From Enterovibrio coralii (GTDB taxonomy: Bacteria; Pseudomonadota; Gammaproteobacteria; Enterobacterales; Vibrionaceae): 64,000 nucleotides of DNA. Position numbers and translations under genes: made by a program. The stretch covers positions 1 through 64,000 of the forward strand of contig NZ_LNTY01000051.1 in assembly GCF_001559595.1 (NCBI RefSeq), in the 5' to 3' direction. Below, one piece after another: positions 12,542 to 64,000 of this stretch. Numbering within the stretch: the stretch's first letter is position 1; each line of letters starts with the position of its first letter. Below the pieces are notes generated by a model. The model did not search any database. It was not told where the DNA came from and saw only the letters and a list, made by a program, of their open reading frames with translations.

Positions 12542-13200
12542 TTATCTATCGAACCAACGCTCTCCATAGGCGGATGAATAGTCAGGCTCGACGTCCGTTT
12601 TCAAGTCACTTTCTGCAATCAAAGGCCCGACAACTGTGCGGTAGGGCAATATGCCAGCCCAGACATCAAGCTTCATGTCAGCGAGGTCATCATTCACCCC
12701 GTGACGACCGATTTTTACGGAGGCTTCTTGTATTGGCATAACCAGCAATTCTGTCGCGGTTAGTTCTTTCTCATTGCCCGGTCTGGCTTCTTGGCTTCTG
12801 CCCGGTGCGATTTGCTCGAGAAACGCGTCCAATGCGACTGCCTTTTGCTGGTTGTCTTCAACGCGTTCGAATTGTCCAAACACCATTGCACAACGGTAAT
12901 GAGCACTGTGGTGGAATGCCGATCTCGCTAGCACCCAGCCATCAAAAAGAGTGAAAGTCAGGCAGCAATCTTCACCTTTCTTCAAGTGCTTCATCAAAGG
13001 CTGTTCTTTGCGCCGTGAATATAGAGGTTATCGTCGATGCGCCATACCAACATTGGAATGACAGTTGGACCACGATGATCGTGAATGGCGACATGCGCCA
13101 GTTTTGATTCATCGATGATCACGTAGAGCGCTTCTTGATCTTTAACGCCTTTGTGCGCGGCTTTATTAAGCGTTGTTCGTGCCGTTGAACTGAGTGACAT
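12542..13200 (-). CDS. pyridoxamine 5'-phosphate oxidase-family flavoprotein (frameshifted)
   Basis: About 219 residues when one missing base near 12997 is restored. As sequenced, the first part stops at HGAKNSL and the second resumes with LMKHLKKGEDCC. The family has these as one continuous split-barrel FMN-binding protein. It starts at the ATG at 13198-13200 behind GAGGGGAAG. The divergent neighbour is a MocR/PdxR-type regulator, a common pairing that suggests a link to vitamin B6 or its vitamers. Enzymatic activity is not established for this subgroup. The break matches many others in the window and is probably a sequencing error. Confidence 0.75.
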
Positions 13201-13227
13201 TGTTTGCTTCCCCTCATTGTCTGATTC

Positions 13228-13261
13228 CTTAACTTGAAATTTAAGACAAAGGTGGCACCTT
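13228..13261. promoter_or_regulatory. candidate MocR operator region
   Basis: Between the divergent flavoprotein and MocR genes there is an imperfect palindrome CTTAA-N8-TTAAG (13228-13245) and a short inverted repeat AAGGT-GGC-ACCTT (13249-13261). One or both could be the binding site of the adjacent regulator. This is inferred from position only. Confidence 0.35.
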
Positions 13262-13297
13262 ATATAGAACCAATTTTTACAAGCTAATGGATCCAAT

Positions 13298-14758
13298 ATG
13301 CAGCCCATCGACATCGGAGACCTCGTGCTGGATGAAAGTGTCGGCTCAAAGCAGCAGTCGCTCTATCTCGCCATCCAATCAAAAATTCTTCGTGGCGAAT
13401 GGAAAAACCAGGCGAGGTTACCAGCAACCCGTGTGTTGGCAGCGGAGATGGGGCTGAGTCGCAACACGGTAACGGCCGTTTATGAGCAGCTAAAGGCGGA
13501 AGGCTACATTGATAGCAAACCGGGCGCGGGCTATTTTGTGTTGCTGCACCCCGACTATTATTTGAATACACAAGCTGCGGCACTCGATTCGGCTGATTTA
13601 GACAAATCCGGTGAAACGGTGTTCAGTTCGAGTACGAGGAATAGACCGTTTTCGCCAGGTGTGCCCGACCTTGCCCACTTTCCTTATAAAAAATGGGCAA
13701 GACTGGTTCAAATCCAAATGCAGCGCGCAGTGTTAGCGGGGCAAAATGATATTCAGGGTAGTTTTGCGCTTCGCCAGGCGTTGAGTGAGTATCTCCTGAC
13801 AAGCCGCTCAGTGGTCGCACCGGCGCATCGCATCATTATTACAACAGGCGCACAACAAGCCTTGTTTATCGCACTCAATGCCATTGTGAGACGTGGTGAC
13901 AAAGTGCTGATGGAAAATCCGGGTTATACCCAAATGCGCAAGGTGCTGCAGCAATCAGGTGCGAACGTTTCTTACTTTTCTCTCGCAAGCCAATTCAACG
14001 ATGATTTATCGATGTTGGATAACTTCAACGGAAAAGCTCTATATCTCACGCCCAGCAATCAATACCCGATGGGGCATAGTATCGATACACAAGCGAGAAT
14101 GCGTTGCATTGAGTGGGCAGTGAAAACCGGCGGTTGGATCATTGAGGATGACTACGACAGTGAATTTCAGTTCGCCAATCGTCCTTACCCGTCTTTACAA
14201 GGGTTGGCGACTCAACTGCAGGGTGAAAGGGCAAATGTTATCTACATTGGCACCTTTGGAAAGGCGTTTGTACCGGGTATTCGTGTTGGCTACATGGCGG
14301 TGCCAGACGGTCTTGTGGACGCCTGTTTATCACTGAAAGACGCGACCACCGGGTGCTCCCCCGTTCACATTGAGGAAGCCTTGGCCGAGTTCATTAAGCC
14401 GGGTGATTATCTTCGTCACATTAAGAAGATGCGCCACCTTTACCAGCAAAAGCACACCAAATTTGTGGCATGTTTATCTTCCGTGTATGGCGGGAATATC
14501 GATGTTGTAAGCCAACCCGCGGGGCTACATGTGACGTTTAGATGGCAAGGTGGTCCAGATGCGTATTGGGTCAAAAATGCACTGGCGGACAAGGGATTTA
14601 CCCTCCGTACCTTGGATTACTATTGCGATGAGGAATCCCTGCACCAGATGCCAGAATGGATACATCGTTGTCTGGTGGCAGGGATAGGCAATAGCTCGCT
14701 GAATGACATTGAAGAAGGGCTACTCGCACTGAGCGATGTTTTTAAAGCGTTTGGCTAA
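13298..14758 (+). CDS. MocR/PdxR-family transcriptional regulator (GntR HTH + aminotransferase-like)
   Basis: A 486-residue two-domain protein. The GntR-type winged helix is at about 15-85 (LPATRVLAAEMGLSRNTV, then a wing). The class I aminotransferase fold runs from about 115 to the end. The PLP-binding lysine is in IGTFGKAFVPGIRVGY and EDDYDSEF is the Asp-containing cofactor loop. Such regulators bind PLP as an effector and commonly control vitamin B6, GABA or similar genes. The divergent FMN protein is its likely target. Confidence 0.93.
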   Translation: MQPIDIGDLVLDESVGSKQQSLYLAIQSKILRGEWKNQARLPATRVLAAEMGLSRNTVTAVYEQLKAEGYIDSKPGAGYFVLLHPDYYLNTQAAALDSADLDKSGETVFSSSTRNRPFSPGVPDLAHFPYKKWARLVQIQMQRAVLAGQNDIQGSFALRQALSEYLLTSRSVVAPAHRIIITTGAQQALFIALNAIVRRGDKVLMENPGYTQMRKVLQQSGANVSYFSLASQFNDDLSMLDNFNGKALYLTPSNQYPMGHSIDTQARMRCIEWAVKTGGWIIEDDYDSEFQFANRPYPSLQGLATQLQGERANVIYIGTFGKAFVPGIRVGYMAVPDGLVDACLSLKDATTGCSPVHIEEALAEFIKPGDYLRHIKKMRHLYQQKHTKFVACLSSVYGGNIDVVSQPAGLHVTFRWQGGPDAYWVKNALADKGFTLRTLDYYCDEESLHQMPEWIHRCLVAGIGNSSLNDIEEGLLALSDVFKAFG

Positions 14759-14967
14759 GACACCCTAAGAACATGGGGATGAGCTGCGTTGGCATGCTCA
14801 TGGTAGATATCGCCAAGGTAAGTGAGAAGCTCGTTTTCTGTCATCTCATTGGGAATAACAACATCATAAACACGCACTCGCATCGCTGTTGGCGACTCTT
14901 TGAAGAGTTGCCACTCATCCCCAATGCGTCGCACACTCATCAACTGGCCGAACACATTGAAAACCAC
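14755..14967 (-). CDS. small conserved protein, 70 aa (DUF7661-like)
   Basis: A 70-residue protein. The chosen start is a GTG at 14965-14967, one base after the stop of the pentapeptide-repeat gene, with GGTGG just upstream. An earlier in-frame TTG at 14985 would overlap that gene. The sequence VFNVFGQLMSVRR, then VYDVVIPNEMTENELLTYL and IYHEHA, resembles from memory a short family called DUF7661. Function unknown. Translational coupling to the upstream gene is likely. It overlaps the end of the convergent MocR gene by four bases. Confidence 0.6.
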   Translation of the reverse strand: MVFNVFGQLMSVRRIGDEWQLFKESPTAMRVRVYDVVIPNEMTENELLTYLGDIYHEHANAAHPHVLRVS

Positions 14968-14968
14968 C

Positions 14969-15568
14969 TCAATCCACCAGCTCAATGTTGAGGCTCTCTA
15001 GCAAAGCCAGTGCTTCATAGCGTGAGAAGGTTGCACCTTTGAGGTTGTTTTCTAACACATTGATTGAGAAATTGTGTGAATCGGTAAAATCGGTTTCAGA
15101 CAAGTTTGTTCGCATAAACAAGCTATTGGAAAAATCACAATTAGTGAGGGTGGAACTAGCAAAATCCCCATCACGAAAGTCGACATCATGAAGCTTACAA
15201 TCTGTGCAGTTAAGCTCATTTAAGGTCAACCCAAAGAAGCTGGAATCTGTGAGGATGCAGTTTTTGAATCTCATCTCGGCATCTTTTCGATAGGCTGGCC
15301 AATCTGCCATTGTCCAATCAATTCCCACAAGTTTAGATTCCTCAAAATCCAGCTCAGTGAGCCTTGAGAAAGGAAACTTTGCCATGCTGAGGTTACAGCG
15401 TCGGAAAGTGCAATTGATGAACTTGCAGTCACGAAAAACCGTGCCTGTAAATTGGCAATCTCGAAACTCACACTCTTCAAATTCAATACCCGTGAAATTG
15501 GCTTCTTGAAGGGTTAGCTTTGAAAACACTTCATCGTAATACTGCTCGCCATTTTCAATGCTTACCAC
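14969..15568 (-). CDS. pentapeptide-repeat protein (Qnr/McbG-like)
   Basis: A 199-residue protein when started at the GTG at 15566-15568, which has AGGAG five bases upstream. A longer frame from 15664 lacks an RBS. Repeated A(D/N)LXX-type blocks such as ANFTG, CEFRD, CQFTG, CKFIN and CNLSM form a right-handed quadrilateral helix that mimics DNA. The end, LKGATFSRYEALALLESLNIELVD, resembles the C-terminus of Qnr proteins, which shield DNA gyrase from quinolones. Whether this one binds gyrase is unknown. Followed immediately by a small gene. Confidence 0.8.
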   Translation of the reverse strand: MVSIENGEQYYDEVFSKLTLQEANFTGIEFEECEFRDCQFTGTVFRDCKFINCTFRRCNLSMAKFPFSRLTELDFEESKLVGIDWTMADWPAYRKDAEMRFKNCILTDSSFFGLTLNELNCTDCKLHDVDFRDGDFASSTLTNCDFSNSLFMRTNLSETDFTDSHNFSINVLENNLKGATFSRYEALALLESLNIELVD

Positions 15569-15737
15569 GGTAACTCCTGTGTGTGTTAGTGCCTGAATAT
15601 AGAGTGAGAGTACAGTGTATTTGGGCGGAGAGAAAGCGCGATTTTCGAGGCTAAGAGAATCCATTTAACGAGGGAATATTTGACATCCTTGACTATGATT
15701 AAAGGCAGAAACCTTTGTGAGCCAAGGTCGTAGATGT

Positions 15738-16199
15738 ATGACAAATAGAACAATCTACTTTTACGAGCCAGACGATGCGTACGGCTTTCTGTCTAACTTC
15801 TTTATTGCGCCTTTAACGATTGATGACCGTGTTTGGTTAACCTCCGAGCACTATTATCAAGCGCAAAAATTCCCGTCTTTTTCTCTTCAAGAGCGTATTC
15901 GACATGCGCGCTCACCGGACGAAGCGTTTCAGTTAAGCCGACAATTTGCTGACGAGGTCGACAGCAAGTGGATGGACGTTCGCTGCGAGGTGATGCGCCA
16001 TGTGGTCGAGCAAAAGTTCACGCAACATCCTGCGTTAAGGACGTCGTTACTCGCCACCAATGATGCATTGCTGGTGGAGCATTCCAGTGTTGATGCGTTT
16101 TGGGGCGATGGGGCAAAGGGTGATGGCCTCAACCAACTCGGTCTGATTCTAATGGATGTCAGGTTGATGCTGGCTAACAATGCGAGACATGTATCCTGA
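15738..16199 (+). CDS. NADAR-family N-glycosidase (YbiA-like)
   Basis: A 153-residue protein starting at the ATG at 15738; an upstream in-frame GTG at 15717 is less likely. The NADAR fold is shown by FYEPDDAYGFLSNFF, WLTSEHYYQAQKF and FWGDGAKGDGLNQLG. E. coli YbiA hydrolyses the N-glycosidic bond of early riboflavin intermediates, removing toxic pathway products. Other NADAR proteins reverse ADP-ribosylation of guanine, so the substrate here is open. It stands alone, divergent from the pentapeptide-repeat gene. Confidence 0.9.
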   Translation: MTNRTIYFYEPDDAYGFLSNFFIAPLTIDDRVWLTSEHYYQAQKFPSFSLQERIRHARSPDEAFQLSRQFADEVDSKWMDVRCEVMRHVVEQKFTQHPALRTSLLATNDALLVEHSSVDAFWGDGAKGDGLNQLGLILMDVRLMLANNARHVS

Positions 16200-16570
16200 G
16201 TCATCCTCTGCGCTGATTTTGGGACAGAGTGTTCTCCGAGATAAGCGCGTTTTCATGCATTTTGATTGAGAGAAAGTGCCTACAAAGTAAGAATTAACAA
16301 CATTTCCTCCTTTTGCTGCAACCCTGCGCGCAGTGCCCCTGCTATTTTAATGACGAGCGGGGAAGTCGGCGCAACCGCTCTTAAATATCCCGCCAATAAA
16401 AATTAATAACTCAAAGCAGCCGTCACCAAGATGTGATGTTGTCTGTCAGGGAACGTGAGTTTGGCTTTATCCATTGCTTACACCGATGAGGATGTGCCCA
16501 AGTACAAGAACTGAATGCGTCGTCAGTTTTCTTCCACGAAGTTCTTATTGTGTGGTTAAGCGGAAAGACA

Positions 16571-16600
16571 CTTTGGTATCAGAAGGATTGCATACCAAAG
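16571..16600 (+). other. leader hairpin 1
   Basis: A perfect 9-bp inverted repeat, CTTTGGTAT (16571-16579) and ATACCAAAG (16592-16600), with a 12-base loop that contains AGGA. It lies about 215 bp before the regulator start. It could be part of a regulatory leader or a small RNA. Confidence 0.5.
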
Positions 16601-16622
16601 AAACATTACACCTGTGACTCAA

Positions 16623-16697
16623 AAATCTTGGTGTGAGTAAAGGAGAACGAAACACTCGCGGAGTGCGATTGTTCTTCTCATTTTTACGCCAAGATTT
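16623..16697 (+). other. leader hairpin 2, long imperfect inverted repeat
   Basis: An imperfect inverted repeat with arms of about 35 bases. The outer stem AAATCTTGG pairs with CCAAGATTT, and the inner parts GGAGAAC/GTTCTTC and CACTC/GAGTG also pair. The apex is CGCG-rich. It is followed by no T-run, so it is not a simple terminator. Candidate structured RNA or protein-binding site. Confidence 0.5.
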
Positions 16698-16814
16698 GAC
16701 GCCAAAACGGCAACGAACATGACGAGATTCATGTTGCTTCCTGTTGCGATACTCAACGCGCAACTGGCCTGAGGCGGTTTTATGTCAGGTGATTTACCAT
16801 GATAAGGGGGAGAA

Positions 16815-18170: not shown

Positions 18171-18364
18171 TGTCATCACCTCATCAGCGTCTTGAGGCTG
18201 CGACTCGAGGTTAAGTATCCCCAAATTGAACATGGGTAAGTGACAGGAGCGTATAAAGTTATAAAAGGCGATATGAATTCGCTGAATTTTTTTGTCAGAC
18301 AGCCAGGTTATTTGAGCCATGTTAGGTGATACACGAGTTCAGCACGATCGAGTGGAGCAGTAGG

Positions 18365-18678
18365 ATGAGAATGTGTGAACTGATTGATAACAATTTGGTG
18401 CTGAAAGCGGATGTCGATGTGTGTCTGGCAGAAGACTTTTCTTTGGATGTGTGTTGCTATGAGAAAGGCGACCAGCTTGTTGTGTTCAGCCCTGTCACGG
18501 GTGATGTGATGGTGTGTGATAGCGCGACCAGCGTGTTCCTCTCTTTGATTGAGAAAAACCTTCCTTTAGGTGCGGCGTTGTCAGCCTGTCAGTGTGCGAC
18601 CCTGAGTACGCCCGTCGTTTGATCCACGAATTAGAGCGTATGCAGATCATCCAGCTTGCAGGGGTGCGTTGGCATTAG
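18365..18678 (+). CDS. PqqD-like protein, HPr-rel-A type (frameshifted)
   Basis: About 104 residues when one base missing near 18597 is restored. The first part reads QLVVFSPVTGDVMVCDSATSVFLSL. After the break it continues DPEYARRLIHELERMQIIQLAGVRWH, the usual end of PqqD-fold proteins. These are RiPP-recognition (RRE) domains, or chaperone-like relatives found beside HprK-related kinase systems. No maturase, kinase or precursor peptide is visible nearby, so it is an orphan. It follows the NtrC-type regulator by 195 bp and is convergent with the cheY-like gene, overlapping its stop. Start chosen at ATG 18365 behind GGAG. Confidence 0.6.
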
Positions 18679-19064: not shown

Positions 19065-19201
19065 GGTATCGAACGCTTCTAAATTGAGTCACATGACTAA
19101 AATATAGTCCATCAATAGCCCGTTATTTAGACAGACTCTCCAAATTCTACTGAAATGCTGGATTTATCCGCGTTCTGTGAGTGTTGTAGGTAAGTGGACG
19201 C

Positions 19202-20415
19202 TCACTCTCGCCGAGAGGTTGGTGAGGCCGCATAGCGTCTCGGGGCACTTTCATCTAGTGACGTGTGCTCTGCGTGTCGTGCCATTTCATACAGTGACAG
19301 CAAGCGGGTTTCATACTCACGCGCACAGTGTTTTTCTTGCACATAGAGCCTCGACTCGCGGCCTAAACGAAGGCGTTTCGTCATGTCAGTAAACACATCC
19401 AACAATTGGTGTTGAACGCGACAATGTCCTTTCTTATCTGTCCATTTGAGCGGGTGTTCATTTCTGCGGGCAATGGCTTTGGGGCGCACCGAAATCACGG
19501 GTGTTGCCATCGCCATAGCTCCAGTAAGAGGGCAGAACGTGTGTCTATTTCTGTAGGGATGGCCAATGCATCAATCACATTGAAAAAGGGATAGTAGTCA
19601 GAGATTTCACCTGCAAAGCGAACGTTGTTTTCAATGATATTTCTGGCTTGAATTTCGTTTCTCAACAGGGGCAAGAAGCGCGCGTTTCCTGCAATGAGCA
19701 GCACGCTATTGTGCTTAAATTCCGGCGACAGTTTACAAGCAACCGCAAACTCGTCGATCAGGTGTATCACATCTTCAATGGCGTGATGAGTAATGTCCGT
19801 GCCAACGACGAACTTATTGGTTGGTATGGCAACTGTCCCAATAAAGGAATTCGTCCTCTCTGCATCAACCTGTTGTAACGCGGGACGGAAACGTCTTGCA
19901 TTGATAGCAGGCCGAATGAGACGGCATTGTTCAGGGGCGATCTTCACCCTCTTTTTTAGCCAGACATACGTATCGCTTGATGATGAGATGAAAACGTCGG
20001 TGGAGTGCGACAGAGCTGACAAATAAAGACGTGAGAGCCAGCTTGCGTCCTTTTCAGTTTGCGCAGGTGCTAATTGATGAAGCTTTACCGAAATAGATGC
20101 TCGGTGAGCAAGCCATTGCATGGCAAGTGGCACTTCACCATAGGTATGGCAGATGTCTGGCTTAAGGATGCTGAGGATTTTCTTGCACTCGCGAAAAGAA
20201 CGCCAGCATAACGGCTTGGTATTTTTAAGCTCAATACAGCTAACACCATTGGGAAGTGTGAGTCTCTGTCCTTGATGTTTACTCAGAACCACGAGCGTGT
20301 GTTCATAGTCTTTGGACATAGAGCAAGACAGGTTGCTCAATAACTGGCGATTTAGCACATCATCCGTGTATGTACTCACGATATGGCAGATGTGCGTGGA
20401 TGAAACTGCCGACAT
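19202..20415 (-). CDS. GT4-family glycosyltransferase (frameshifted)
   Basis: About 404 residues if one base missing near 19518 is restored. As sequenced, LLLELWRWQHP replaces the expected LLLEAMAMATPVIS. The chosen start is the ATG at 20413-20415 with GGAG ten bases upstream; a longer frame to 20481 lacks an RBS. Features fit GT-B fold enzymes that use nucleotide-sugar donors: an N-terminal HIVSTY strand, IRPAINARRF and the C-terminal helix region LRLGRESRLYVQEKH. It may act in surface polysaccharide synthesis, given the regulator nearby. Acceptor unknown. Confidence 0.72.
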
Positions 20416-20576
20416 GAATTTCCACTCCAAACGCTTGACTATCCAGATACTTCGGCCAACAACACCTTGGTACGACGACATGTTCGCACAATTGCGTAAG
20501 TGGCAAATTCCGAAAAAAGAGACAAACAGGAGAGACGGGGTTCAGCAGGGATGTTTAAGGAAAGAGAGATAACGTA

Positions 20577-20596
20577 AGCCCCTAAAACTAGGGGCT
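20577..20596. terminator. hairpin downstream of the diguanylate cyclase gene
   Basis: A perfect 8-bp stem AGCCCCTA/TAGGGGCT with a 4-base loop lies 18 bp after the diguanylate cyclase stop. The T-run is weak, so termination may be partial. Confidence 0.6.
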
Positions 20597-20613
20597 ATTC
20601 GAGGGCTATGATA

Positions 20614-25135: not shown

Positions 25136-25698
25136 CTAGAGTTTTTCTGGCGGCGAGACCGATTTTCCATCGCTCGTAAAAAAGGGTGTTGGGGCATTGT
25201 TGCCTTTAATCTTGTTGGTAAGCATTAACGCCATCACTTTCACAATAGAGCCAAAAGAGAACTTTGGGTGAGGATTGAGAGGCGGAGCACCGTTCGCGTA
25301 AGTTCCATGACGGCATGGGTTATCGGCCCCAATAAAGCGTCTTTATTTTCGCCATGAAGTATTGCTACGGGAAGGCCGGCAAAGGCCGTTTTGTAGCTGA
25401 TGGTATTGGCAATGGGTGTGCGGCAACACTTCGCGTAGTAACGGTAAATACCCTTGGGCTTAAGCCGGACACACTTTAGTTGGTCTGCGCCAGTTAAGAT
25501 TTTTATCTTGGCGGGCGCGACCTGAAAAACTTCCGTACCACCCCATTCATCGAGCCATTTTTCAGCGTCACCCAAATAGCGTGCATAACGTTGGCAGTCG
25601 TCGCAATAACACATCATGTGATTACCTCTCTTTGGAGAGACATCTTCCAACACACCAGTCAGGGTGCCGCATTCACAGCGTATTGTTAGCTCTGACAT
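25136..25698 (-). CDS. DUF6151/GFA-like zinc protein (frameshifted near its end)
   Basis: About 187 residues if one base missing near 25297 is restored. The frame then continues NGAPPLNPHPKFSFGS to the ending PEKL at 25136. The N-terminus has a CxC pair (RCECG) and CYCDDCQ, with CC in YAKCCRTP, suggesting a zinc site as in the glutathione-dependent formaldehyde-activating-like fold. Function is unknown. It starts nine bases after the upstream DUF482 gene with an AAAGGTGG RBS, so they form an operon. Confidence 0.72.
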
Positions 25699-25707
25699 AA
25701 ACCACCT

Positions 25708-26915
25708 TTATTCGTTGTGAGTATCGTGCGACTCGACATTTTGTCGGTAAGGTAAGTGTGCGATGGCGTCTTCAACGTATCCATCAATCAGCTTGTGCTC
25801 ACGTTGCAGATAATCTGCAATGGCTTGATGGAATCCTTGGTGTTCGAGGTAATGTGCGGAATAGGTGATCACAGGTTCGAAACCTCGAAGGAGTTTATGT
25901 TCGCCTTGTGCGCCAGCATCAAACTTCTTAAAGCCATGCTGAATACAGTAGTCGATACCGCGGTAATAACAGAGTTCAAAGTGGAGATTATCAAACTCCT
26001 GTGAGCAGCCCCAATAGCGTCCGTAGAGTGTGTCATCAGATTTGAAGTAAAGCGCGCCCGCGATGTATTGACCATTTTTTCGGGCGAGTGCCATCACCAA
26101 TGCGTCGCTCATGGTTTGGACGAGTTGATGAAACAATTCATCATTAAGATAGCCCGTGTGACCGGAGCGTTTGAGGTAAGTGTTGGTGTAAAAGCGTGCA
26201 AATAGTTGCCAATGTTCTTGAGTGATTGCGTCACCTTCGAGTATTTCCACCTCAATCTGCTGCTGTTCAATGCGCTGGCGTTCCTTACGAATGTTTTTGC
26301 GCTTTCTCGCTGTCATTTGAGCGAGGAAGTCATCAAAACAACCATAGTCTTTGTTCTGCCAGTGAAACTGCACCGCGCGACGTTCCAAGAAGCCAATTGG
26401 CTTGGTTTGAACGCACAGTGATTGCTCTGGAAAGAGAATGTGAGCACCAGAGCAGGCGGTTTGATCGACCACTGAACGCATGGCATTGGCGAGCAAGCGG
26501 TGCATTTGTTGAGCGTCCTCGCTGTCCCGACAAAGAAAACGAGGCCCTGTCGCTGGTGTGAATGGGATGGCACAAATGAGCTTGGGGTAGTATTCCAACC
26601 CTGCATCTTCATAGGCTTCGGCCCATGCCCAATCAAACACATACTCGCCATAAGGGTGCGTTTTGATGAAGCAAGGTGCGGCACCAATCAATTCGTCGCC
26701 GCGATAAACAACAAGGTATTGTGGTATCCAACCTGATTTGAGGCCGACGGCTTGTGTCTCTTCCAAGCGAGAAGAAACTCATGCCGTAGAAAGGGATAGC
26801 GAGAGTTCACCAATGCATGCCATTCATCAGCCGTAACGTCTTTAATGCTTGTAATGGTCTGACAGTGCAGTTCGTCGTCCATATTGACGTTTTCTTTGGT
26901 GTTTTCTGGCGTCAT
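25708..26915 (-). CDS. FemAB-like/DUF482 acyltransferase-fold protein (frameshifted)
   Basis: About 402 residues once one base missing near 26768 is restored, joining FLRHEFLL to LEETQAVGLKSGW. This matches the DUF482 (peptidogalycan biosynthesis/FemAB-like) family, which opens with a similar 'ALEE' segment. The fold is a double GNAT-like domain. The end has KKFDAGAQGEHKLLRGFEP, the usual conserved C-terminal block. Substrate unknown. The start is uncertain: ATG 26915 is used and ATG 26882 is also possible. Followed by the DUF6151 gene nine bases later. Confidence 0.75.
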
Positions 26916-30207: not shown

Positions 30208-31355
30208 TTAAAGCTGGCTGAAGATTGACTCAATGCTCTGCGCCTCTTTGCTGTTTGCTTCTAAGCCGCAGTAATTCGCGAGCGTTTTCATCACACCGTG
30301 TTCTTGTAAATAGGTCTGCAACTCGACGGCTTGTGGATCTGTGGCATTGATATACTTCAGTGCCGCTGCTATGCCCTTGAGCAATGCGTCGTTTGACGTA
30401 CCATATTCAATTGTACCGAGTAACGGTCTGATTAATCTATCATTCCTGCCAAGTTTTCTAATGGGCTCTCGTCCCACTCGATTAACTTCATCCACTAAGA
30501 ATGGATTTGAGAATCGCTCGAGAATTTTCTCGATATAGGCGTAATGCTGTTCCCTGTCGAACCCATATCGCAAGATCAGCACTTCGCCACTCTCTTTCAT
30601 TGCTTTTGTCACATCCATACGGATGATTGGATCGCTAATGGCCTCTCGAATGGTGCGATACCCCGCCAAACAACCGAGGTAAGCGTGATGCAATGTCCCG
30701 TGTTAAGGGTGAACAGTTTGCGTTCCACGTACGCCATCAAGTTGCTTGTGCGTTCCATACCAGCAATTGAAGGAATATCGCCTTTGAATTGCTGGTCATC
30801 CACAATCCACTCACTGAAGCTTTCAACAGTGACTTCAAGCGGGTCGTCATTCGCTGCATCCATGGGAGGCACGATACGGTCTACCGCGGAATCAACGAAC
30901 CCAACATATTGCTCTGCTTGGTTTTGCTCCTCTTCATTGAGGTGGGCGTAAACCTCTGCTTTCAGGTGTGTGCTTCCACGCACCATGTTTTCGCACGCAA
31001 TGATATTCAACGGTGACTCATTGCCCAGTTCAAAACGTTTCTGCAACCCTTCAGCGATGGTTCTGGCGATTCTATCCAGTACATTTGCGCCAACTGCGGT
31101 GGTGATCATGTCGGTGTAAGTGATTTTATCTATCACGTCTTTGCTCAGAGAGTTCACCGCCGTGATGTGCTCTACGACATCAATTTTGTTGTCTTTGCCT
31201 ACGACACGAACCCTGTATTTTTGCTCGTGACTTAATTGGTCAATCAACGGTGCGTTAACATCGGCAAAGGTCACCGCTACGTTTGAATCTGCAAGCAATT
31301 TCCCGATAAAACCACGGCCGATATTGCCTGCGCCAAAATGGACAGCTTTTTTCAT
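30208..31355 (-). CDS. mtlD: mannitol-1-phosphate 5-dehydrogenase (frameshifted)
   Basis: It oxidises mannitol 1-phosphate to fructose 6-phosphate with NAD. One base is missing near 30684: the frame reads GHCIT and then goes off, while [14 protein letters not shown] continues in the next frame. Restoring one G there gives 382 residues, the length of E. coli MtlD, so the gene is probably intact in the cell. The start is the ATG at 31353-31355, with GAGG eight bases upstream; [10 protein letters not shown] is the Rossmann motif. The enzyme is needed for the PTS mannitol route. Confidence 0.88.
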
Positions 31356-31417
31356 CTTCATTACCTCATCAATGTTCAGAAAGGAGCCAGAACGTGCTGA
31401 CTCCATTCTTTTGGGGC

Positions 31418-33364
31418 TTACGCCGCCTCAGTCGCAGACAGGATTTCCAGAACTTCATTAACGTCTTGCGTGGAAGCAAGTCGTTCGATGGCGTTTGGAG
31501 CGTCCAATGCGTTAGTGATGGAGGTAATAACTTGAATGTGTTCGTCGTTTTTCGCCGCGATGCCGATAACCAGTTTCGCTACGTCATCGTCGTCTTCGGT
31601 GAACTTTACACCGCTTGGATACTGACAAAATACAATGCCAGTTTTCTTCACCTTGTCTTTGGCCTGAATAGTGCCGTGTGGTACAGCGATAGATTCACCG
31701 AGATAGGTCGACACCAATTTTTCACGTTCAAACATGGCATCGACGTATTCAGGCTCAACATAACCAAGAGCCACCAGTTGCTCACCGGCAAAGCGGATAG
31801 CGTCTTCTTTGGAGTTGGCCTGCAGACCAAGGTGAACGTTTTTCTTCTCCAGCTGGAAGGCGGGTGTCGGTTGAGGCTCTAAGGTTTCGTCGTTTGCGGC
31901 AAGCAGCGGTTTTTTAATGTACTCCGCATCGTTCGCCGCTTTCGGCCCTTGCGCTGCCAACAATTGCGTGACGAGGTTGCTGTAAACGTCGCTATCAAGG
32001 AAGTTTTGCAGCGAAATGTGGTGTGCGTGTTCAGCGTGTTTGCGCGCACGGTCGGTAAGATCCGAGTGTGTAATAACAATGTCGACATCTTGCGGCAGGT
32101 TGTTGATAGCCACGTTTGTCACGCTAATTTCTAATCCTGCATCTTGCACTTTCTTGCGCAGCAGACCCGCGCCCATGGCACTTGAACCCATGCCCGCGTC
32201 ACACGCCACAATAATGCTCGACACGTTCGCCATATCAACACGGCTGTTATTGTTCTTCTGAGCCACCATGCCTTTAGATGTCGCTTTCATGTCTTTCATC
32301 TGTGACGTGGCCTTGGTAAGCGCATCTTCGTCGTCTTCGTCTTCTGTACGTTGTGCTTTAAGCAGCAGAGAAGCAACAAAGAAGGAGACGCCTGTCGAGG
32401 CAGCAACTGACAACAACACACCCACTAACGAGCTTTTCGGTGTCATCAGAAGGATGGCGAAGATAGAACCAGGAGAGGCGGGCGAGACCAGTCCTGCATT
32501 GAAAAGAGTGAGAATAAACACGCCAGTCATACCACCCGCGATCGCCGCCAGAAGCAGCCGAGGGTTCATCAATACGTACGGGAAGTAGATTTCGTGGATA
32601 CCACCAAAGATTTGGATAATCGATGCACCACCTGCGGTTTGTTTCGCGGTCCCTTTACCAAAGAACATGTATGCGAGAAGGATCCCTAAGCCTGGGCCTG
32701 GATTTGCTTCAATCAAGAAGAATATAGACTTCCCGGTTTCTGCCGCTTGCTGAATACCCAGCGGAGAGAAGATGCCATGGTTGATAGCATTGTTCAGGAA
32801 CAGAATTTTCGCTGGCTCGACAAGGATGGATGTGAGAGGCAACAAATGCGCTTCAACCAAGAAGTTAACGCCAGATGCCAGCATGTTTGAAACGACTTTA
32901 ACGAATGGGCCAATCAGGAAGAACGCTACGATCGCACATAGCATGCCGATAATGCCGGAAGAGAAGTTGTTGACCAGCATTTCAAAGCCGCTTTTGACTT
33001 TGCCTTCCATGTATTTGTCGAACGTTTTGATGGCCAAACCGCCCATTGGACCAACAATCATCGCACCCATAAACATGGGGATGTCTGAGCCGACAATGAC
33101 ACCCATGGTGGTCACTGCACCAACAACGGCACCGCGCTCGCCGCCCGCTAAGCGGCCACCCGTGTAGCCAATAAGCAGTGGAAGCAGGTAGGTGATCATT
33201 GGGCCAACAAGAGCTGCCAATGTTTCATTTGGCCACCAACCTGTTGGAATAAATAGAGCTGTGATAATACCCCACGCGATAAACGCGCCAATGTTGGGCA
33301 TAACCATGTTTGAGAGAAACCGACCAAAATTTTGTACTTTGATCTTCGCATCTGGTGATATCAT
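31418..33364 (-). CDS. mtlA: mannitol PTS transporter EIICBA
   Basis: A 648-residue PTS permease with fused domains. EIIC is a membrane domain at about 1-340. EIIB (about 383-480) has its phosphorylation site at C388 in [13 protein letters not shown] (about 505-648) has its site at H563 in VPHGT. It imports and phosphorylates mannitol. An acidic linker with DEDDEDA lies between C and B. The upstream region has CRP-like sites and a hairpin in the 5' leader. First gene of the operon with mtlD and mtlR. Confidence 0.96.
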
Positions 33365-35132: not shown

Positions 35133-36508
35133 TTACTGCACCACGACGCGGTTACGTCCTGTGTTTTTGGCTTGATAGAGCAGGGTGTCTGCACGTTCCA
35201 TCAAGGTATCTTGCGATTCAGAGAGTTGGTAGTGCGTTGCCCCAATACTGATGGTGACCGTCAATTCGGTATCAGCCAGGGTGATCTTATGGTGCTCACA
35301 GCGTTGCCTGAGCCGGTCCAACGCGCGTTTTGCTTGTTGCGTGGTCGCGCCGGGCAACAAGATGGCGAATTCTTCACCACCAATACGGGCGACAAAATCT
35401 GATTCACGCATTTGGTCACGCATGATTTCAGCGATTTCAAGCAAGACTTTGTCGCCGACCGCGTGACCGTGGGTATCATTAACGACTTTAAAATGGTCGA
35501 TATCGATAACGGCAAGCACAAGATCAGTGTTGGCATCGTCAGCTGCTTCACAGTGGTTAGTGAGTTCAGGGAAAAACGCGTAACGGTTAGGTAGGCCCGT
35601 TAATTGGTCGGTTTGCGCTTTGGTCTGCCAACGATCCCTTGAACGAGAAACGACATTGAGGCGTCGAACGTGCAAGCCAATAGCGATAGGGGTGATCATA
35701 CTGACCAGCACAAACGTCAGTAGCGCGGTGTGTCCTTCAGTTTTGTCCGGCAGGTTGAAGGGGCCAAGATCATACGGTGCAATCGCTGTGACAATCAGTC
35801 CCATTCCGAGTAATCCGAGCAGAGATGCTAGCTCCTCTCCTTTAAATGCCAAAATCATTGGCACGACAGGTGCAATGAATATCAGACCGGGCGAAAAGAT
35901 GAATGCACCCAGAGTTATCAGAAGATACGCGCCAATATAACTGAGGTTTTGTTTATTTAAGTGTGATAGCGGTTTTTCGGTGCGCGTCCAAATGTAATAG
36001 AAGGGTGCGACGAGCAAGATGCCCAGCGCATAGGTGGAGGTGATTTCATACAGATCGTAGAAATAGCCGCCTTTGCCCGTATAACCGCCGTAGAGAATAT
36101 CTAACGATTTGACTGAGCCGAGCAATAGCCCTGGCAATAAACAGACATTCAGAAGATACGAAAACAAGGTCTCAAACCGTAAGCCTTCTTTGCTAAAACG
36201 GGTAACCCATATTTTGGCTGAAAGATAACACGCCAAAGGTATAAGCACCCCAGAGATGATTGCGGGGAGCAGGGAGGCGGACGCATCCCAACGATAAATC
36301 GCAAGTGGATAGCAACGGCGGAAGCGATAGAAAGTGCAATCAGTGCACGAATACCCCCATGGAGACAGGTGATCATACCGATTCCTGATGCGACGCTGAG
36401 CTGTACGATGTTTGCGTCGTGCAGACTTAATGGCGTTGCACCAGAATATGCAGCGATGAAATAAAGAAATGATCCGGCGACTATCCATGCGTCTGAACCA
36501 CGAGTCAT
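35133..36508 (-). CDS. MASE1-type membrane diguanylate cyclase (frameshifted)
   Basis: About 458 residues if one base missing near 36312 is restored. The N-terminal part (SDAWIVAGSFLYFIAAYSG...LSVASGIGMIT) and the following spans fit a MASE1 sensor of about eight membrane spans. The C-terminal GGDEF domain has an active GGEEF with RESD positioned as the inhibitory RxxD site. It should make c-di-GMP with product feedback. Start is uncertain; ATG 36508 is used because GGAAG lies ten bases upstream. Confidence 0.82.
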
Positions 36509-36729
36509 GCGAAATAGACTTCCAATACTACTGGCTTGTGGCTCGGCCCCTTGGCCCTTTTCCCTACTGACTTTACCGACTGTTTTTATTGTTATTGGCG
36601 GATCACTGCACCACAAGCAATTACCACTTCCGCTCTATGAGTATAGGGTGAGTTTGCCTTCAAGCCACCCAACGGAGGAGCCAATGGAAAGAGACCACGC
36701 AGAGTCTGCCTGCGTGGTCGCTGAAGTGA

Positions 36730-37315: not shown

Positions 37316-37956
37316 ATGACCGCTCATTCCTTTGCCTTCTTAACAGTCTTTTTTCCCTTAGCATGCAGACGCGTGCTATGCGTATTCGGGTTGGTGTTGT
37401 TTACCTCATCTTGTGCATCCGATAACCCTAGCTCAGTCGACATGACTGGTCGTTCTCAGATTGAAGATGACGAAGTGCTGTTGGTGGGAAAGGTGTCTGT
37501 TGTGCCTGTTCCTGCTACGAAGACATCGCAAGAGACAGACACACTTAATCTCTTTTCTGATGAGCGCGTGTTGTTGTGGCTCAGTCCGTTTAAGCGTAAC
37601 GTCAAATCTCAACCAGATGACATGCTGGGACTTTCGGCGGCGTGGGGTAAGACGTTTTCTTATGCCATACCCAAAAAGAACGTTGCCCTGCAAAAGTTAG
37701 AACGGGCGAAGGCAGTTAATGACCAACCAGTTTATCTACCATTGCTTCTCCCTGAAGCGTTCAAATTTCTCATTCGGTAGATGATCGCGTTATCTATATT
37801 GGGCATCTTAGGCTCTACGTGAATCCATTCGAAGAAGTGATTGGTTTTGAAGTGCTGGATGAATCGAAGCAAACCCAACATCAACTTCATCAAGCCATTG
37901 CAGGAAATGGGCGCTTTCGCGTCTCATTGATGGCACCGGTCTCAGAGTTTCACTGA
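37316..37956 (+). CDS. putative lipoprotein, unknown (frameshifted)
   Basis: About 213 residues once one base missing near 37758 is restored. The N-terminal hydrophobic stretch LCVFGLVLFTSSC ends with a lipobox-like cysteine, so it is probably an outer- or inner-membrane lipoprotein. The region after the break reads ISHSVDDRVIYIGHLRLYVNPFEEVIG. The segment VYIGHLRLYV with PEA before it suggests a CsiV-like or similar envelope protein, but I cannot assign the family. It lies before the HAD phosphatase gene on the same strand. Confidence 0.55.
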
Positions 37957-40765: not shown

Positions 40766-41746
<981 letters not shown>

Positions 41747-49484: not shown

Positions 49485-50109
49485 ATGGACGACGTTTCTT
49501 TCTGGATGTTATTTCTATCCACCGCAGTGGTGCTGAATATTGCACCTGGCCCTGACCTTTTATACATCCTCACCAAAACAGTTACTGGCGGCAGAAAAGT
49601 GGGTTTTCTTGCTGCACTGGGTGTATGTACCGGTGCGCTCTTTCATGTCGTAGCGGCTGCAATCGGTTTGTCCGCAATCCTCGTATCTTCCGCCTTGGCG
49701 TTTACCATCGTTAAATATGTCGCGTTGCTATCTTCTTTATCTCGCGTGGCAGGCGTTTTGCTCCAAAGGCACCCAACTTAATGTAGAAGCCGCATCCGCT
49801 GAAGCAGTTTCTGGTTGGGCTGCGTTCAAACAGGGTGTGTTGATTGATATTCTAAACCCGAAAGTTGCCATCTTCTTTATGGCATTTTTGCCTCAGTTTG
49901 TTAGAGAAGGCGAGGGGCCTGTTCCGGTACAACTGCTCGTGCTGGGTTTTATTGTGGTGCTGGTGGCGATTGTGGTGGAAGGGCTTTATGTTCTGGCGGC
50001 TGACAAACTGGCAGACAAGATTCGAAATAGCCAACGCATCAGTCGTTGGATGGACAAAATCGTCGGTGCCATTTTCACCTTTTTGGGTATCCGCCTTGCT
50101 ATCAGCTAA
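49485..50109 (+). CDS. LysE-family amino acid exporter (frameshifted)
   Basis: About 208 residues, the family length, if two missing bases between 49722 and 49728 are restored. This reads KYVGVGYLLYLAWQAF, which matches the conserved LysE segment. The protein has about six membrane spans, with NIAPGPDLLYILTKTV at the N-terminus. It would export an amino acid such as homoserine or lysine, or a related compound. RBS AGAGAGG before the ATG. As sequenced, the gene is split into two frames. Confidence 0.82.
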
Positions 50110-50717: not shown

Positions 50718-50923
50718 TCCCATTCTTCAAAACCCGTCTTAGGCAATCGCAAGTCAGTGATTGCCAAAAGACAGACCATTCTGCTTTAAGAAATTCGGCC
50801 AGATCCTCAGTGCGGCTCTTGTACTTCGTGCGACTTTTCTTCATGTTATTGAAATGTTGGAAATCAATGGATACACCAGACGATGCCTCAGTCATATCGT
50901 CATAGAAAAAGCATGGAGCCGTG

Positions 50924-52162
50924 ATGATCAAATACATCATTACTAAACAACAGATAGAAGAGATGGAAGGGGTGACAAAAACACACTTCCTTAATCCCAA
51001 TGCGGTGAGACATGCCAAGTCACTGGGTGACCTTGTTGGCATCACTGGCTTTGGTTTTCACCTCGTTGAGATTGAGCCTGGCCATGAGTCGACGGAATAC
51101 CATGTTCACTATTTCGAAGATGAGTGTGTTTTCATCTTATCTGGCGAAGCGGAAGTGACGATAGGTGACGACGTTTTCTCGGTTGCCGATGGCGACTTTA
51201 TTGGGTACCCCGCGAATGGCTTACCTCACGTGATGAAAAACACGGGGTCACAGACGCTTCGTTGTCTCGTGGTTGGTGAGCGTCTCGCTCATGATGAAGC
51301 GGACTACCCAAGGAAAAACAAGCGGATATTTCGAAACGAAGGGCGTCCTTGGCAGCTTGTCGATATAGATAAGATTACCGACCAACCCAAGGGAAGTAAG
51401 AAGATGGCTCCAGTGAAAAATGAAATCGCGTTAGTGACAGGCGGTAGTCGAGGCATCGGTGCTGCCACGTCTCTAAAGCTTGCTGAAATGGGCTACACAG
51501 TTTGTGTAAATTACCGCTCACGCAGCGCAGAAGCGAATGCCGTGGTGAAAACCATTCAAAATAACGGGGGTGAGGCTTTTGCGATTCAAGCTGATATTTC
51601 TGACGAAGACGCAGTGCTTGCTTTGTTCGCCGCTATCGATGCGAAAGCGCGGCCTTTGGCTTGCTTAGTTAATAATGGTGGCGTGCTTTTTACGCAAAGC
51701 CGTCTGGAAGATATGACGGTAGAGCGGTTTAACACGGTCTTTAGTGTGAATGTCACTGGCTCTTTCCTTTGTGCAAGGGAAGCAGTGAGAAGAATGTCGG
51801 TGGAAAGAGGCGGAAAAGGCGGTGTGATTGTGAATGTCTCGTCCGGTGCCGCGCGTTCAGGCTCACCAAATGAGTACGTGGATTATGCCGCAAGTAAAGG
51901 GGCTATTGATACGTTGACGGTAGGGCTGGCTAAAGAAGTCGCAAGCCAAGGGATACGCGTGAATGGTGTCAGACCCGGCTTTATTTACACAGACATTCAT
52001 GCCGATGGCGGAGAGCCGAATCGCGTCGACAGATTGGCCAAGAATATACCCTTACAGCGTGGCGGAGAGCCAGTAGAAGTGGCGTCTGTTATCTGCTTTT
52101 TGGTGTCAGCAGAATCCACATTCATGACGGGTAGCATCCTTGATGTGACGGGTGGCGTGTGA
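50924..52162 (+). CDS. cupin fused to short-chain dehydrogenase (SDR)
   Basis: A 412-residue protein from ATG 50924 behind GGAG. Residues 1-160 are a cupin (HVHYFEDECVFILSGEAEV; HVMKN). Residues 165-412 are a classical SDR with TGGSRGIGAAT, NNGG and the YAASK catalytic Tyr-Lys. The join, at about residues 155-165, falls exactly where a normal cupin ends and an SDR starts. An AAGGGA and an ATG stand at the join, and a TAA occurs in the shifted frame a few bases ahead of that ATG. It may be a true fusion or two genes joined by a sequencing error. Substrate unknown. Confidence 0.72.
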   Translation: MIKYIITKQQIEEMEGVTKTHFLNPNAVRHAKSLGDLVGITGFGFHLVEIEPGHESTEYHVHYFEDECVFILSGEAEVTIGDDVFSVADGDFIGYPANGLPHVMKNTGSQTLRCLVVGERLAHDEADYPRKNKRIFRNEGRPWQLVDIDKITDQPKGSKKMAPVKNEIALVTGGSRGIGAATSLKLAEMGYTVCVNYRSRSAEANAVVKTIQNNGGEAFAIQADISDEDAVLALFAAIDAKARPLACLVNNGGVLFTQSRLEDMTVERFNTVFSVNVTGSFLCAREAVRRMSVERGGKGGVIVNVSSGAARSGSPNEYVDYAASKGAIDTLTVGLAKEVASQGIRVNGVRPGFIYTDIHADGGEPNRVDRLAKNIPLQRGGEPVEVASVICFLVSAESTFMTGSILDVTGGV

Positions 52163-52694: not shown

Positions 52695-52695
52695 C

Positions 52696-53634: not shown

Positions 53635-53675
53635 CTTAATTGACGGAGAAAGGGATCTTGAAGAGCTAGCTTGGG

Positions 53676-57811: not shown

Positions 57812-57820
57812 AACTCCTCC

Positions 57821-58681: not shown

Positions 58682-58710
58682 TAGAAATTACCAGTAAAGC
58701 TGTGAGAGAT

Positions 58711-58732
58711 GCCGGGCAGTTTCCTGCCCGGC
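58711..58732 (-). other. intercistronic stem-loop between the binding protein and permease genes
   Basis: A perfect 9-bp GC-rich stem GCCGGGCAG/CTGCCCGGC with a 4-base loop, without a T-run. Such elements after binding-protein genes stabilise the upstream mRNA and keep the binding protein in excess over the permeases. Confidence 0.7.
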
Positions 58733-58742
58733 GATGAGATGA

Positions 58743-60059: not shown

Positions 60060-60287
60060 TTTTTATTCCTCATTGTCGTGATGATGTGTAACGGCCTGTC
60101 GTTAACATTCATGTAACAATGAAAGTACAAAAAAAGGCAAAGGTGAACGAAAACGGTGAAGAAAAGTACTTTTATGATGGGGGAAGATAAAATTTTTACT
60201 TTGGAATGGCGGTTTCGTTTAGATAGTTAGACGGCTTTTTGCAGTGGGTGCCGTTGAAGTCAGACACCCATTGCATTGAAATGCATA

Positions 60288-61205
60288 TCAACAGTGTAGT
60301 GCTTTAGATTCTAACTCGGAGAGAAGATCGTCATCAGCGATAGCAACAGGCTCTTGCTTCAGCACGCGTTCGCAATAGAGGGTCATAAAGTCCTCACGAA
60401 TCAACTGCTCAAGGTCTGTTGCACGCTCTGTTGGGCAGAATAAACGTACGTGCACTTGAGGGTCACCTAAGCTGGTGGTTGTGACATGCACGTGAGGATC
60501 CGCCCCCGGGAGGTCGACACCCGCATGGCGCTCAATCACATGGTTGTATCGCGTTGCCACTTCGTAGAAATCTTCACAGTGGTCATCAATTCTTGCTAAC
60601 AAGCTTGGAACCAGCGGATAAAGATTCGCCGTCTCTTTCACCGTGATATGGAATTCATGGTAGACATAGCGCTTCATGAAGTTCAGGTTTTTGACTGGCG
60701 TTGTGAAGAACAAGCTGTTCGGGAATGTGACGGTTTTGCCCGTGTAGGCATAGGTGCCGTGGTGTAGGTCGATTTCCTGAATCTTCGTAGCCATCAGGTT
60801 GTGTTCAATCACTTCACCACACAGATTGCCTACTTCAATCCATTCGCCGATTTGAAATGAGCGAGAGCTCGCGCGTTGAATCGAGCCTGTAAAACACAAG
60901 ATGATTTCTTTCGAAGCGACCACCACTGCTACTGCAATGGCCGTCAGTGACAATGCAAACTCATTAATTTCTGAGCGCCACAGTAAGAACATGACGACAA
61001 GAAGCAGGGTGAACGAACCGTTTTTGGTTCGTGAAATCCACTTTCTTTGGTCTTCGCTTAGGAAGTTGGCATCTCCCCAAATCCATTTGATTAAAAGGCG
61101 ACGTACAAGCCAAAAGATTGAAAAGACCACAAGGGTAAATAGAAATTTGTGTTCGCTAAAAAAAGCGATCGTGGTTCCAAGATATTCCACAGCCAGATCC
61201 TGCAT
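60288..61205 (-). CDS. MscS-type mechanosensitive channel family protein
   Basis: A 305-residue membrane protein with about three N-terminal spans. A conserved MscS pore/beta domain follows, including SIQRASSRSFQIGEWIEVGN and KTVTFPNSLFFTTPVKNL. It likely opens on membrane tension or forms a small ion channel. It stands alone after the polyol operon. Confidence 0.85.
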   Translation of the reverse strand: MQDLAVEYLGTTIAFFSEHKFLFTLVVFSIFWLVRRLLIKWIWGDANFLSEDQRKWISRTKNGSFTLLLVVMFLLWRSEINEFALSLTAIAVAVVVASKEIILCFTGSIQRASSRSFQIGEWIEVGNLCGEVIEHNLMATKIQEIDLHHGTYAYTGKTVTFPNSLFFTTPVKNLNFMKRYVYHEFHITVKETANLYPLVPSLLARIDDHCEDFYEVATRYNHVIERHAGVDLPGADPHVHVTTTSLGDPQVHVRLFCPTERATDLEQLIREDFMTLYCERVLKQEPVAIADDDLLSELESKALHC

Positions 61206-61638
61206 GCTTAAGGGAAAGTTAGAAATTCATCTCTCTAATCACGTAAGGCGAAGTGCTTTGTCCTCTCCAAACTTACGTTTTGTAGGAAATTTGCTACGTA
61301 CAGTAAAGTCTATAGCGATAGCTCGCAAGGTGAAATGAAGACAATCAATAAAACAATAGCTCAGTAATTAATATCAACTAACACATTGATTTTAGATATT
61401 CATGCTGTCAATTCATCAAGCTTAAGCCACTCTTGGTTGCCAGAAAGCTCATGCACGAAATTCCTAAGAGATAAAACGAATGCTGTTCCGTTTTCATAGG
61501 TGATGTGATCGAGTCTCTCAAATGAGACATTTGTGTGAAATTTCACCAGTGTTTTCTTTATCAATCAGAACCTGTCTGCCACTTTTATTTATGAGACATG
61601 CATCTCAATTCTGATTTGGTAGTAACGCTGGAGGGGGC
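61206..61638. other. divergent promoter region, MscS gene / protease gene
   Basis: 433 bp, AT-rich. GTGAAATTTCAC (61535-61546) is a perfect palindrome and GTCTC/GAGAC forms a small stem near 61513-61528. Both lie just ahead of the protease gene. No coding frame seen. Confidence 0.4.
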
Positions 61639-64000
61639 ATGGCACGGCTCGATACAATGTTTAAACGGTCTTTGTTTTTGCTTCTCGCTCCGTTTGGCTA
61701 CACCTATGCGATTGAAATTCATAGCGTTAGTGATCCTTCTCTTCTTGAGCAAGCTCCCCAGAAATCTTCGTTTAGCTCCAACTCGTCAAACAACGGCTTT
61801 TTACCCGTCGAAACCATCGTGTTGCCCAACGGCAAAGTGAAAACAAAATACCGCCAGTACCACAATGGCGTGCCAGTGCGTAAAGGGTTTGCCGTCTCGA
61901 CAAAAGAGGGAGTGAGCAATAAAGACGTGCACGGCAAGAAAGTCATGGGATTGAGTGGTGCCATTCCGTCAGCTTCGCCCGCGATTAGCCGAGAGGGAGC
62001 GCTGCAACGGCTAAAATCGCTTCATCATTATCAAGCACCTGCTGCGGAAATCGTCTTTCCTGAAAACGAAGAAAGCCAGCTTGTTGTTTGGATGGATGAC
62101 GCGGGTGGAGCGAGATTGGTATATGAAGTGAGCTTCTTCCTTCCTGCGAAGAAACCATCACGTCCGCATGCACTGATCGACGCTAAAACCGGTGAAATGA
62201 TCAAAACATGGGAAGGGCTGACGAAAATTGAGGACCTCGGTCAAGGGCCGGGGGGCAATGAGAAAACAGGGCAATATTATTTCGGTACGGATTATTCTGC
62301 GTTCACTATCGACAAAACAGGCACGACTTGCACATTGGAAACGGCCAATGTCAAAACTGTCAACTTGGCACATGGTACATCCGGCTCAACGGCATTTTCT
62401 TATGGCTGTAACGACGCACTAAACACCAACACATTCAAAACCATAAATGGAGCATACTCGCCTCTCAACGATGCGCACTTCTTCGGGCAACTGGTCTTTG
62501 ATATGTACAAAGACTGGCTAAACTTGTCGCCATTGTCTTTCCAGCTCGTTATGCGTGTTCACTACGGTAATAACTACGAAAATGCATTTTGGAATGGCTC
62601 CTCAATGACATTTGGTGACGGCTACACGCGTTTTTACCCTTTGGTAGATGTGAATGTATCTGCGCACGAAGTCAGTCATGGTTTTACCGATCAAAACTCA
62701 GATCTTATCTACTCAGGCATGTCAGGTGGGATCAACGAAGCGTTCTCTGACATCGCGGGCGAAGCGGCGGAGTATTTTTGGAAAGGCTCTGTCGATTGGC
62801 AAGTTGGGCGTGATATTTACAAGAACAGCGGCGCACTCAGATATTTTGAGACACCTTCTGATGACGGCGTGTCGATTGACCATGCGAATCAATATTACAA
62901 CGGCTTAGATGTTCACTACTCAAGTGGTGTGTTTAACCGTGCTTTCTATCTATTGGCAAACACGTCAGGCTGGGACGTGAGAAAGGCGTTTGAAGCCTTT
63001 GCGTTTGCAAATAAGCTTTACTGGCAAGCGGACTCCAACTTCGATGAAGGTGGCTGTGGCGTGGTGCAAGCCGCAAGCGATTTAGGTTACAACACAACAG
63101 ATGTCGTGAATGCTTTTAATCAGGTAGGGGTTTACGCTTGCTTGGATGCGACTGAGTTGACGAATGGCACGCCAGTATCCGGCGTTAGCGGCACATCTGG
63201 TGAAGAGTCCTATTTCTACTTCAGTCTTCCTGCGAATACGGATTCTGCTAGTGTGGCTTTGACTGGCGGATCGGGCAATGCTGACATGTACGTGAAGTTT
63301 AATGGCTGGCCGACCACCACAGATTACGATTGTGCCTCTACTACCAGTGACAACAATGAATACTGTGATGTTACCTTGCAAGGTAGCGGTGAATACAATG
63401 TTCTTGTTGTGGCACAAACAGACTTTAGCGGCGCGTCTATTCAAATGGATTACGTGGAATCGCCGCCACAAGAAATCGCAATTGGTGAAACGGTTGGCAG
63501 CCTGTCGGGATCCAGAGGCGATACCTTGTTCTACCGCTTCGCAATCCCAGAAGATGGCAGCGGTGTCAGGGTGGTACTCTCTGGTGGCACGGGTGATGCT
63601 GATTTGTATGTTCGAAAAGGCGCAACCCCAAGCCTAACAGAATACGATTGCCGCCCATACTTTTGGGGTAACTCAGAAACCTGTTCGGTGTCAGGCTCTC
63701 CGGGCGACGCGTTTTACATCATGCTTCATGCTATTCGTCATTTGCTAACACATCTGTGTCACTCGTTGCCGAGACAACAAACACTGAGCCACCGGAAGAT
63801 CGCGCCGATCCGATTGACCCTACGACACCGCAATCCAATATCCAGGGTAGTGCGGGTGACGCGGTTTACTACTCCTTCACTGTAACCAGTGCGGGCTTAT
63901 TGTCTTCTCGAAATGCATCAGCATTGTCGGCGTCGACCTTAAATGGAGACACCGTTACCATTTCACTTTCTGGTGGGCAGGGTGATGCTGATCTCTATGT
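61639..64000 (+). CDS. secreted vibriolysin-like M4 metalloprotease with PPC domains (frameshifted, runs off window)
   Basis: A secreted zinc protease with a signal peptide (about 1-24). An FTP/PepSY-type propeptide region (to about 190) precedes an M4 domain with HEVSH at 343-347 and the third zinc ligand Glu about residue 367 (GGINEAFSD). At least two pre-peptidase C-terminal (PPC) domains follow, from about residues 510-610 and 625-710. One base is missing near 63730, after which the frame continues YSSFANTSVSLVAE and into a third PPC-like domain up to the window end. It would digest proteins outside the cell after type II export. RBS GGAGG before the ATG. Confidence 0.9.

Follow-up and report, generated by a model that had tools for sequence, protein, structure and literature searches.

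Single-base shortfalls in genes of a draft Enterovibrio coralii assembly as very probable consensus errors with an oriented GC context

The window analyzed here, a stretch of 64,000 nucleotides comprising bases 1-64000 of contig C51 (NZ_LNTY01000051.1; 80,864 bases) in the assembly of Enterovibrio coralii (GCF_001559595.1, hereafter G000), contains eleven genes that are split by missing bases. These missing bases, and others like them elsewhere in the assembly, are almost certainly errors of the assembly consensus and not a property of the organism's DNA. An earlier note on this sequence had proposed a context-specific sequencing or consensus error in place of gene decay, and this proposal is borne out by losses of one sign on three contigs, by their tight context, by the lack of an excess of stops, by equal identity on the two flanks of the breaks and by the breakage of the sole copies of infC and ispG. 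The faults very probably arose where sequencing dropped one base from a G or C run of two, or at times three, bases; GG ahead of a C, in the context C-A-A-GG-C-T, is strongly favored, and the preference follows the strand. Once enough reads carry the error, the base is missing from the consensus as well, and the gene looks split. G000 itself is an Enterovibrio-like draft of 5.50 Mb in 72 contigs, and the window protein encoded at 31418-33364 has 90-91% identity to three named Enterovibrio.

Frequency, sign and context of the losses

The survey covered 617 kb of G000 in three contigs (C50, 320 kb; C51; and C60, 216 kb), which were compared with the sister genome G015, which is syntenic with the window (73-89% DNA identity in each aligned block) but lacks some of its stretches (e.g. 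the mtl and LysE regions), and with G009, syntenic with much of the window. A break was counted as solid where at least 20 aligned residues and at least 40% identity lay on both sides of it. By this measure, G015 queries gave 86 one-base losses, 5 one-base insertions and 1 two-base loss (317 genes, 106,869 residues), and G009 queries gave 79 one-base losses, 4 one-base insertions, 1 two-base insertion and 1 two-base loss (307 genes, 103,801 residues). The corresponding controls between the two relatives gave 2 one-base losses, 3 insertions and 2 two-base losses for G009 against G015 (191 genes, 66,550 residues), and 3 one-base losses, 2 insertions and 1 two-base loss for G015 against G009 (196 genes, 66,827 residues). 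When merged, the G000 events amounted to 120 sites of one-base shortfall, 45 of them found with both references, which fall in 100 of 426 gene spans and, over 434,009 compared coding bases, correspond to about one per 3.6 kb. The sites are present on all three contigs at 0-9 per 20 kb and are fewer on C51 (10 in 59.5 kb), in part because the window genes mtlD, lipase and LysE, the first two of which are clear in frame-aware alignment, fail the filter and are not counted among the 120. The losses are nearly absent from sister genomes other than G014, which is discussed below; 10 of 17 other genomes of the genus, sampled over a few kb each, gave zero solid events in 73 alignments (alignments, not distinct genes). 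Across 80 named loci of Vibrionaceae, with some Aeromonas and Providencia, 18 one-base losses and 12 one-base insertions were found in 1,115 genes (377,530 aa), one of these events (in L071) lying in a run of N.

The losses have a narrow sequence context. A GC dinucleotide was found at 73 of the 85 well-localized breaks among the 120 merged sites, as compared with 41% of nearby intervals of equal length, and at 99 of all 120; in an earlier event set, for which 60 of 75 events were used, GC lay no more than three bases away in 53 of the 60, against a background of 32%. The direction of shortening could be read at 39 of the 120 sites, where the relative's run is one base longer (an apparent loss from an A run at C50 212356 is not among them), and 35 of these 39 are shortened runs of G or C, all of implied length two or three. 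The 39 include a single A/T run with an implied length of at least four, although 6,716 such runs occur in the 617 kb, which makes a long-homopolymer error of the kind associated with 454 sequencing unlikely. Where a single base remains and can be oriented, the shortened G run is followed by C in 26 of 30 cases, as against 38% of exact GG runs (p = 4e-8). Relative to 15,120 intact GGC sites, the 26 lost sites favor C at -3 (14/26, p = 1.3e-4), A at -2 (16/26), A at -1 (16/26, p = 1.6e-4) and T after the C (17/26, p = 1.8e-5), the context p values being uncorrected for 48 comparisons. The resulting context, C-A-A-[GG]-C-T (A-G-CC-T-T-G on the opposite strand), is not palindromic and thus has a direction, which would be consistent with a strand asymmetry in the reads. 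Literature searches found no paper naming a C-A-A-GG-C-T loss context, and the available portion of PMC4053816 holds nothing on it.

A short oriented context is also what a methylation motif would leave, and the earlier note had raised the possibility of a modified base, with a shared methylation motif across the GC sites. Under such a scheme native DNA would have been read, by nanopore or PacBio, and a modified base near GGC would make the caller drop a base. If a motif were always misread, the words linked to the losses should be depleted in G000; however, per 100 kb, CAAGGCT occurs 16.7 times in G000 and 13.6 and 14.8 times in the relatives, AGGCT 163.6 times against 172.0 and 169.8, and AAGGC is about equally frequent in all. 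An always-misread motif is therefore unlikely, and the note's suggestion is not supported in that form, partial effects being conceivable. Some GGC words are rarer in the same 617 kb of C50, C51 and C60, GGCGCC and GGCGCT occurring at 0.41 and 0.56 times their mean frequency in the two relatives, perhaps through avoidance of a restriction site; yet GCGC is near only 7 of 85 breaks. Long A/T runs, moreover, are hardly touched in G000, and the assembly has a short-read look, with contigs of 244, 398 and 632 bases. Matches to tRNA genes number 63 in G000, compared with 92 and 111 in the relatives, at most 150 candidates having been scored per genome, and together with the tiny contigs this suggests assembly from short reads. 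No match to small-subunit (SSU) rRNA was found in G000, although the same search recovered it in just 9 of the 14 control genomes, so that its absence says little. Misreading of a modified base in native DNA is thus an improbable source of the losses.

Conservation and essentiality of the broken genes

Were the broken genes decaying, their sequence should show it. Up to the break, identity to the reference is 0.858, and beyond it 0.860, and 72 broken genes differ little from 245 intact ones (0.844 vs 0.863, p = 0.13); the broken genes are the longer, at 481 vs 295 aa. An excess of in-frame stops was not found, with 5 in 106,869 residues of the G000 comparison and 3 in 66,550 in the control. 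For 20 of 32 listed references, a list chosen for high local identity, the broken genes were named by search against NCBIfam: 14 of the 20 score above the family cut-off, including infC, ispG, lipA, radA, tgt, secF and nqrB, 4 match only below it, and 2 have no match at E<=1e-30. The infC gene is broken once, with 161 of 166 residues identical across its pieces, and ispG is broken twice, with 358 of 372 identical; beyond these broken places, no second match to either was found in G000. Both genes are essential in Escherichia coli. Since the sole copies of infC and ispG are broken, stops are not in excess and identity is equal on the two flanks, the losses do not represent decay: the excess of stops, the relaxed conservation and the sparing of essential genes that mark pseudogenes are all lacking. 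The listed tRNA matches of G000 score like the tRNAs of its relatives, and no broken tRNA is among them, only one or two being expected at the observed rate.

A lineage with a frameshift mutator, losing G:C pairs at GGC, might by slippage produce losses such as these, almost all of which concern a single base and have the same sign. However, such a mutator, like true decay, is very hard to reconcile with broken sole copies of infC and ispG, with stops that are not in excess, with equal identity of flanks and of broken and intact genes, and with breaks in 100 of 426 gene spans; either process is highly unlikely. Recoding throughout the genome could be invoked because essential genes span two or three frames in the G000 sequence, and ribosome slippage or RNA editing would then have to restore the frame at hundreds of GC-flanked positions, each one base short, those of infC and ispG included. 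However, losses are almost absent from G015 and G009, and G000 carries the loss-linked words mostly intact at other places, so that the chance of such recoding is negligible.

Chemistry of the errors

We lean slightly toward an Ion Torrent-like chemistry as the source of the consensus errors, and the fit to published errors of the Personal Genome Machine (PGM) is partial. In the portion available of the study of this platform, strand-asymmetric, high-frequency indels are described of which 82% lie in runs of two to three and most are deletions of C and G, and such indels are stated to give frameshifts in assemblies (Bragg et al., 2013; PMC3623719). The G000 losses resemble them: one base is deleted at a time, it is mostly a C or G from a run of two to three (35 of the 39 oriented sites), and the result is a frameshift in an assembly. 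They differ in that the same text names no sequence context and merely suspects one, whereas G000 shows C-A-A-GG-C-T, and in that the rate it reports, one per 1000-2000 bp, concerns reads, whereas the G000 consensus has about one loss for every 3.6 kb of coding sequence compared. As far as the accessible text goes, the assembly of Corynebacterium pseudotuberculosis 316, also from Ion Torrent data, offers a precedent in which more than 400 pseudogenes fell to 64 after curation (PMC3917457); homopolymers in general were blamed there, whereas the longer A/T runs of G000 are nearly untouched.

Several observations weigh against consensus error of this kind. According to the excerpted text of Bragg et al. 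(2013; PMC3623719), PGM flow errors under-call long runs, high-frequency indels in general include A/T insertions, and only 7.4% of testable sites are strand-asymmetric. Neither the A/T insertions nor the long-run undercalls reported there belong to the G000 pattern; common A/T insertions were not found, one-base insertions of any base numbering 5 and 4 against 86 and 79 losses with the two references, and the confidence placed in an Ion Torrent-like origin was lowered a little for this reason. The assembly of Vibrio mimicus CAIM 602, described in the part of its report at hand as made with an Ion Torrent PGM and reassembled and refined by its authors (PMC3622966), was the single Ion Torrent assembly compared, and it gave 1 one-base loss in matching context and 1 two-base loss in 23 genes, followed by 0 losses and 1 insertion in 46 further gene spans (43 kb). 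No GC is present at 12 of the 85 well-localized G000 sites, and the aligner that yielded the stop counts penalizes stops, alike in test and control. In addition, one of the ten solid sites on C51, at 51366, sits in an open G000 reading frame of 413 aa (50921-52162), to which a G015 reading frame aligns at 51294-52160 with a frame break; the break may here be a fault on the side of the G015 reference and not of G000.

The few A/T insertions and long-run losses in G000, and the mostly clean V. mimicus yardstick, would also suit another error-prone chemistry, or a consensus of low coverage, that shared the preference without being Ion Torrent. A further assembly of the genus, G014 (87% complete; loci L182-L201 and L214), speaks for this as well, since with 54 sites of one-base loss it is likewise dense in losses, with a looser context, so that more than one faulty spectrum exists in the genus. 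GC was present there at 27 of 44 localized sites, those 44 of the 54 being used for the count, or at 22 of 33 with the filter applied to G000. The error spectrum of G014 therefore differs from that of G000, and a high loss rate does not by itself give a tight GC context. Against a different chemistry, the published strand-asymmetric Ion Torrent indels, in C/G runs of two to three, fit G000 closely in the text available (PMC3623719). A chemistry other than Ion Torrent is possible but doubtful.

Genes of the window and meaning for the genome

Within the window, intact reading frames of G015, G009, E. norvegicus, E. calviensis and Enterovibrio sp. ZSDZ42 were aligned with C51 by a frameshift-aware protein-DNA aligner (272 alignments), events at gene starts (e.g. 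30158, 44408 and 60078) being left out of the counts. The earlier note had read twelve single-base losses in eleven genes, all beside GC. Ten of the eleven genes are indeed one base short, and LysE is two short, as would fit the two adjacent losses placed at 49722 and 49728. One loss shifts by about 20 bases, from 37758 to 37778, where no GC adjoins. Two other positions, 18597 and 25297, are put by the aligner at 18584 and 25308, 13 and 11 bases away, 25297 staying possible.

The Pyridox_ox_2 flavoprotein gene (12548-13200, minus strand) lies in two frames that meet at about 12999-13002 (aligner site near 13000), as supported by two relatives and by PF12900 on both pieces. A small gene at 18329-18676 on the plus strand (119 aa in G015) breaks at about 18584 with two relatives, and a gene for a family 4 glycosyltransferase (19205-20415, minus) breaks at about 19518 with G015 only, its long piece matching PF13439 and its short piece no family. 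The DUF6151 gene (25139-25698, minus; three relatives, PF19648 on the long piece) breaks between about 25297 and 25308, and a FemAB-like (PF04339) gene (25729-26879, minus; five relatives) at about 26768. The mannitol-1-phosphate dehydrogenase gene mtlD (30211-31376, minus) is broken at about 30683 relative to three named Enterovibrio, its pieces matching Mannitol_dh and Mannitol_dh_C, and a MASE1-GGDEF diguanylate cyclase gene (35136-36517, minus; two relatives, PF00990 and PF05231 on the long piece) at about 36307-36313 (aligner site 36313). The gene broken near 37778 (37316-37954, plus; 214 aa in G015; two relatives) has no Pfam match, and an alpha/beta hydrolase (lipase-like) gene (40769-41706, minus; four relatives) breaks at about 41670-41676 (aligner site 41670). 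The LysE translocator gene (49485-50106, plus) falls short by two bases near 49725 when set against intact homologues of 210 aa from two genomes (L265 and L266), and in the Pfam LysE profile its pieces cover positions 2-66 and 67-191, in different frames. An M4 metallopeptidase with a PPC domain (61636-64000, plus; G015 only, with Pfam support) breaks at about 63730 and continues beyond the window end. For LysE, mtlD and the flavoprotein, Pfam assigns the two pieces to a single family or a single enzyme in each case. The labels "PqqD-like" and "lipoprotein", by contrast, found no backing, as the pieces at 18326-18619 and 37316-37777 gave no Pfam match at E<=0.01. The idea that core genes are hit applies to G000 at large, where essential genes are broken, and not to the window, whose broken genes include no known essential ones. 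The shortfalls are likewise not peculiar to the window, given the 120 sites in 617 kb; another lies outside it at C51 74570, in a gene that is 635 aa long in G015.

In a separate observation on C50, at about 148-157 kb (references in L138), homologues of the RuBisCO large subunit, phosphoribulokinase and a hydrogenase small-subunit-like protein, the last below the NCBIfam cut-off, lie within about 10 kb and are found in G015 also. From homology, this suggests a Calvin cycle in the Enterovibrio-like lineage of G000 and G015.

The oriented context C-A-A-[GG]-C-T offers a simple fingerprint by which other public assemblies may be screened for the same fault. For G000 itself, the pattern of broken genes reflects the sequencing method, says little about the bacterium and reveals no new biology. 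Roughly one in four of the gene spans compared resembles a pseudogene but probably is not one, so that inferences of gene content, pseudogenes and metabolism drawn from G000 would be wrong.

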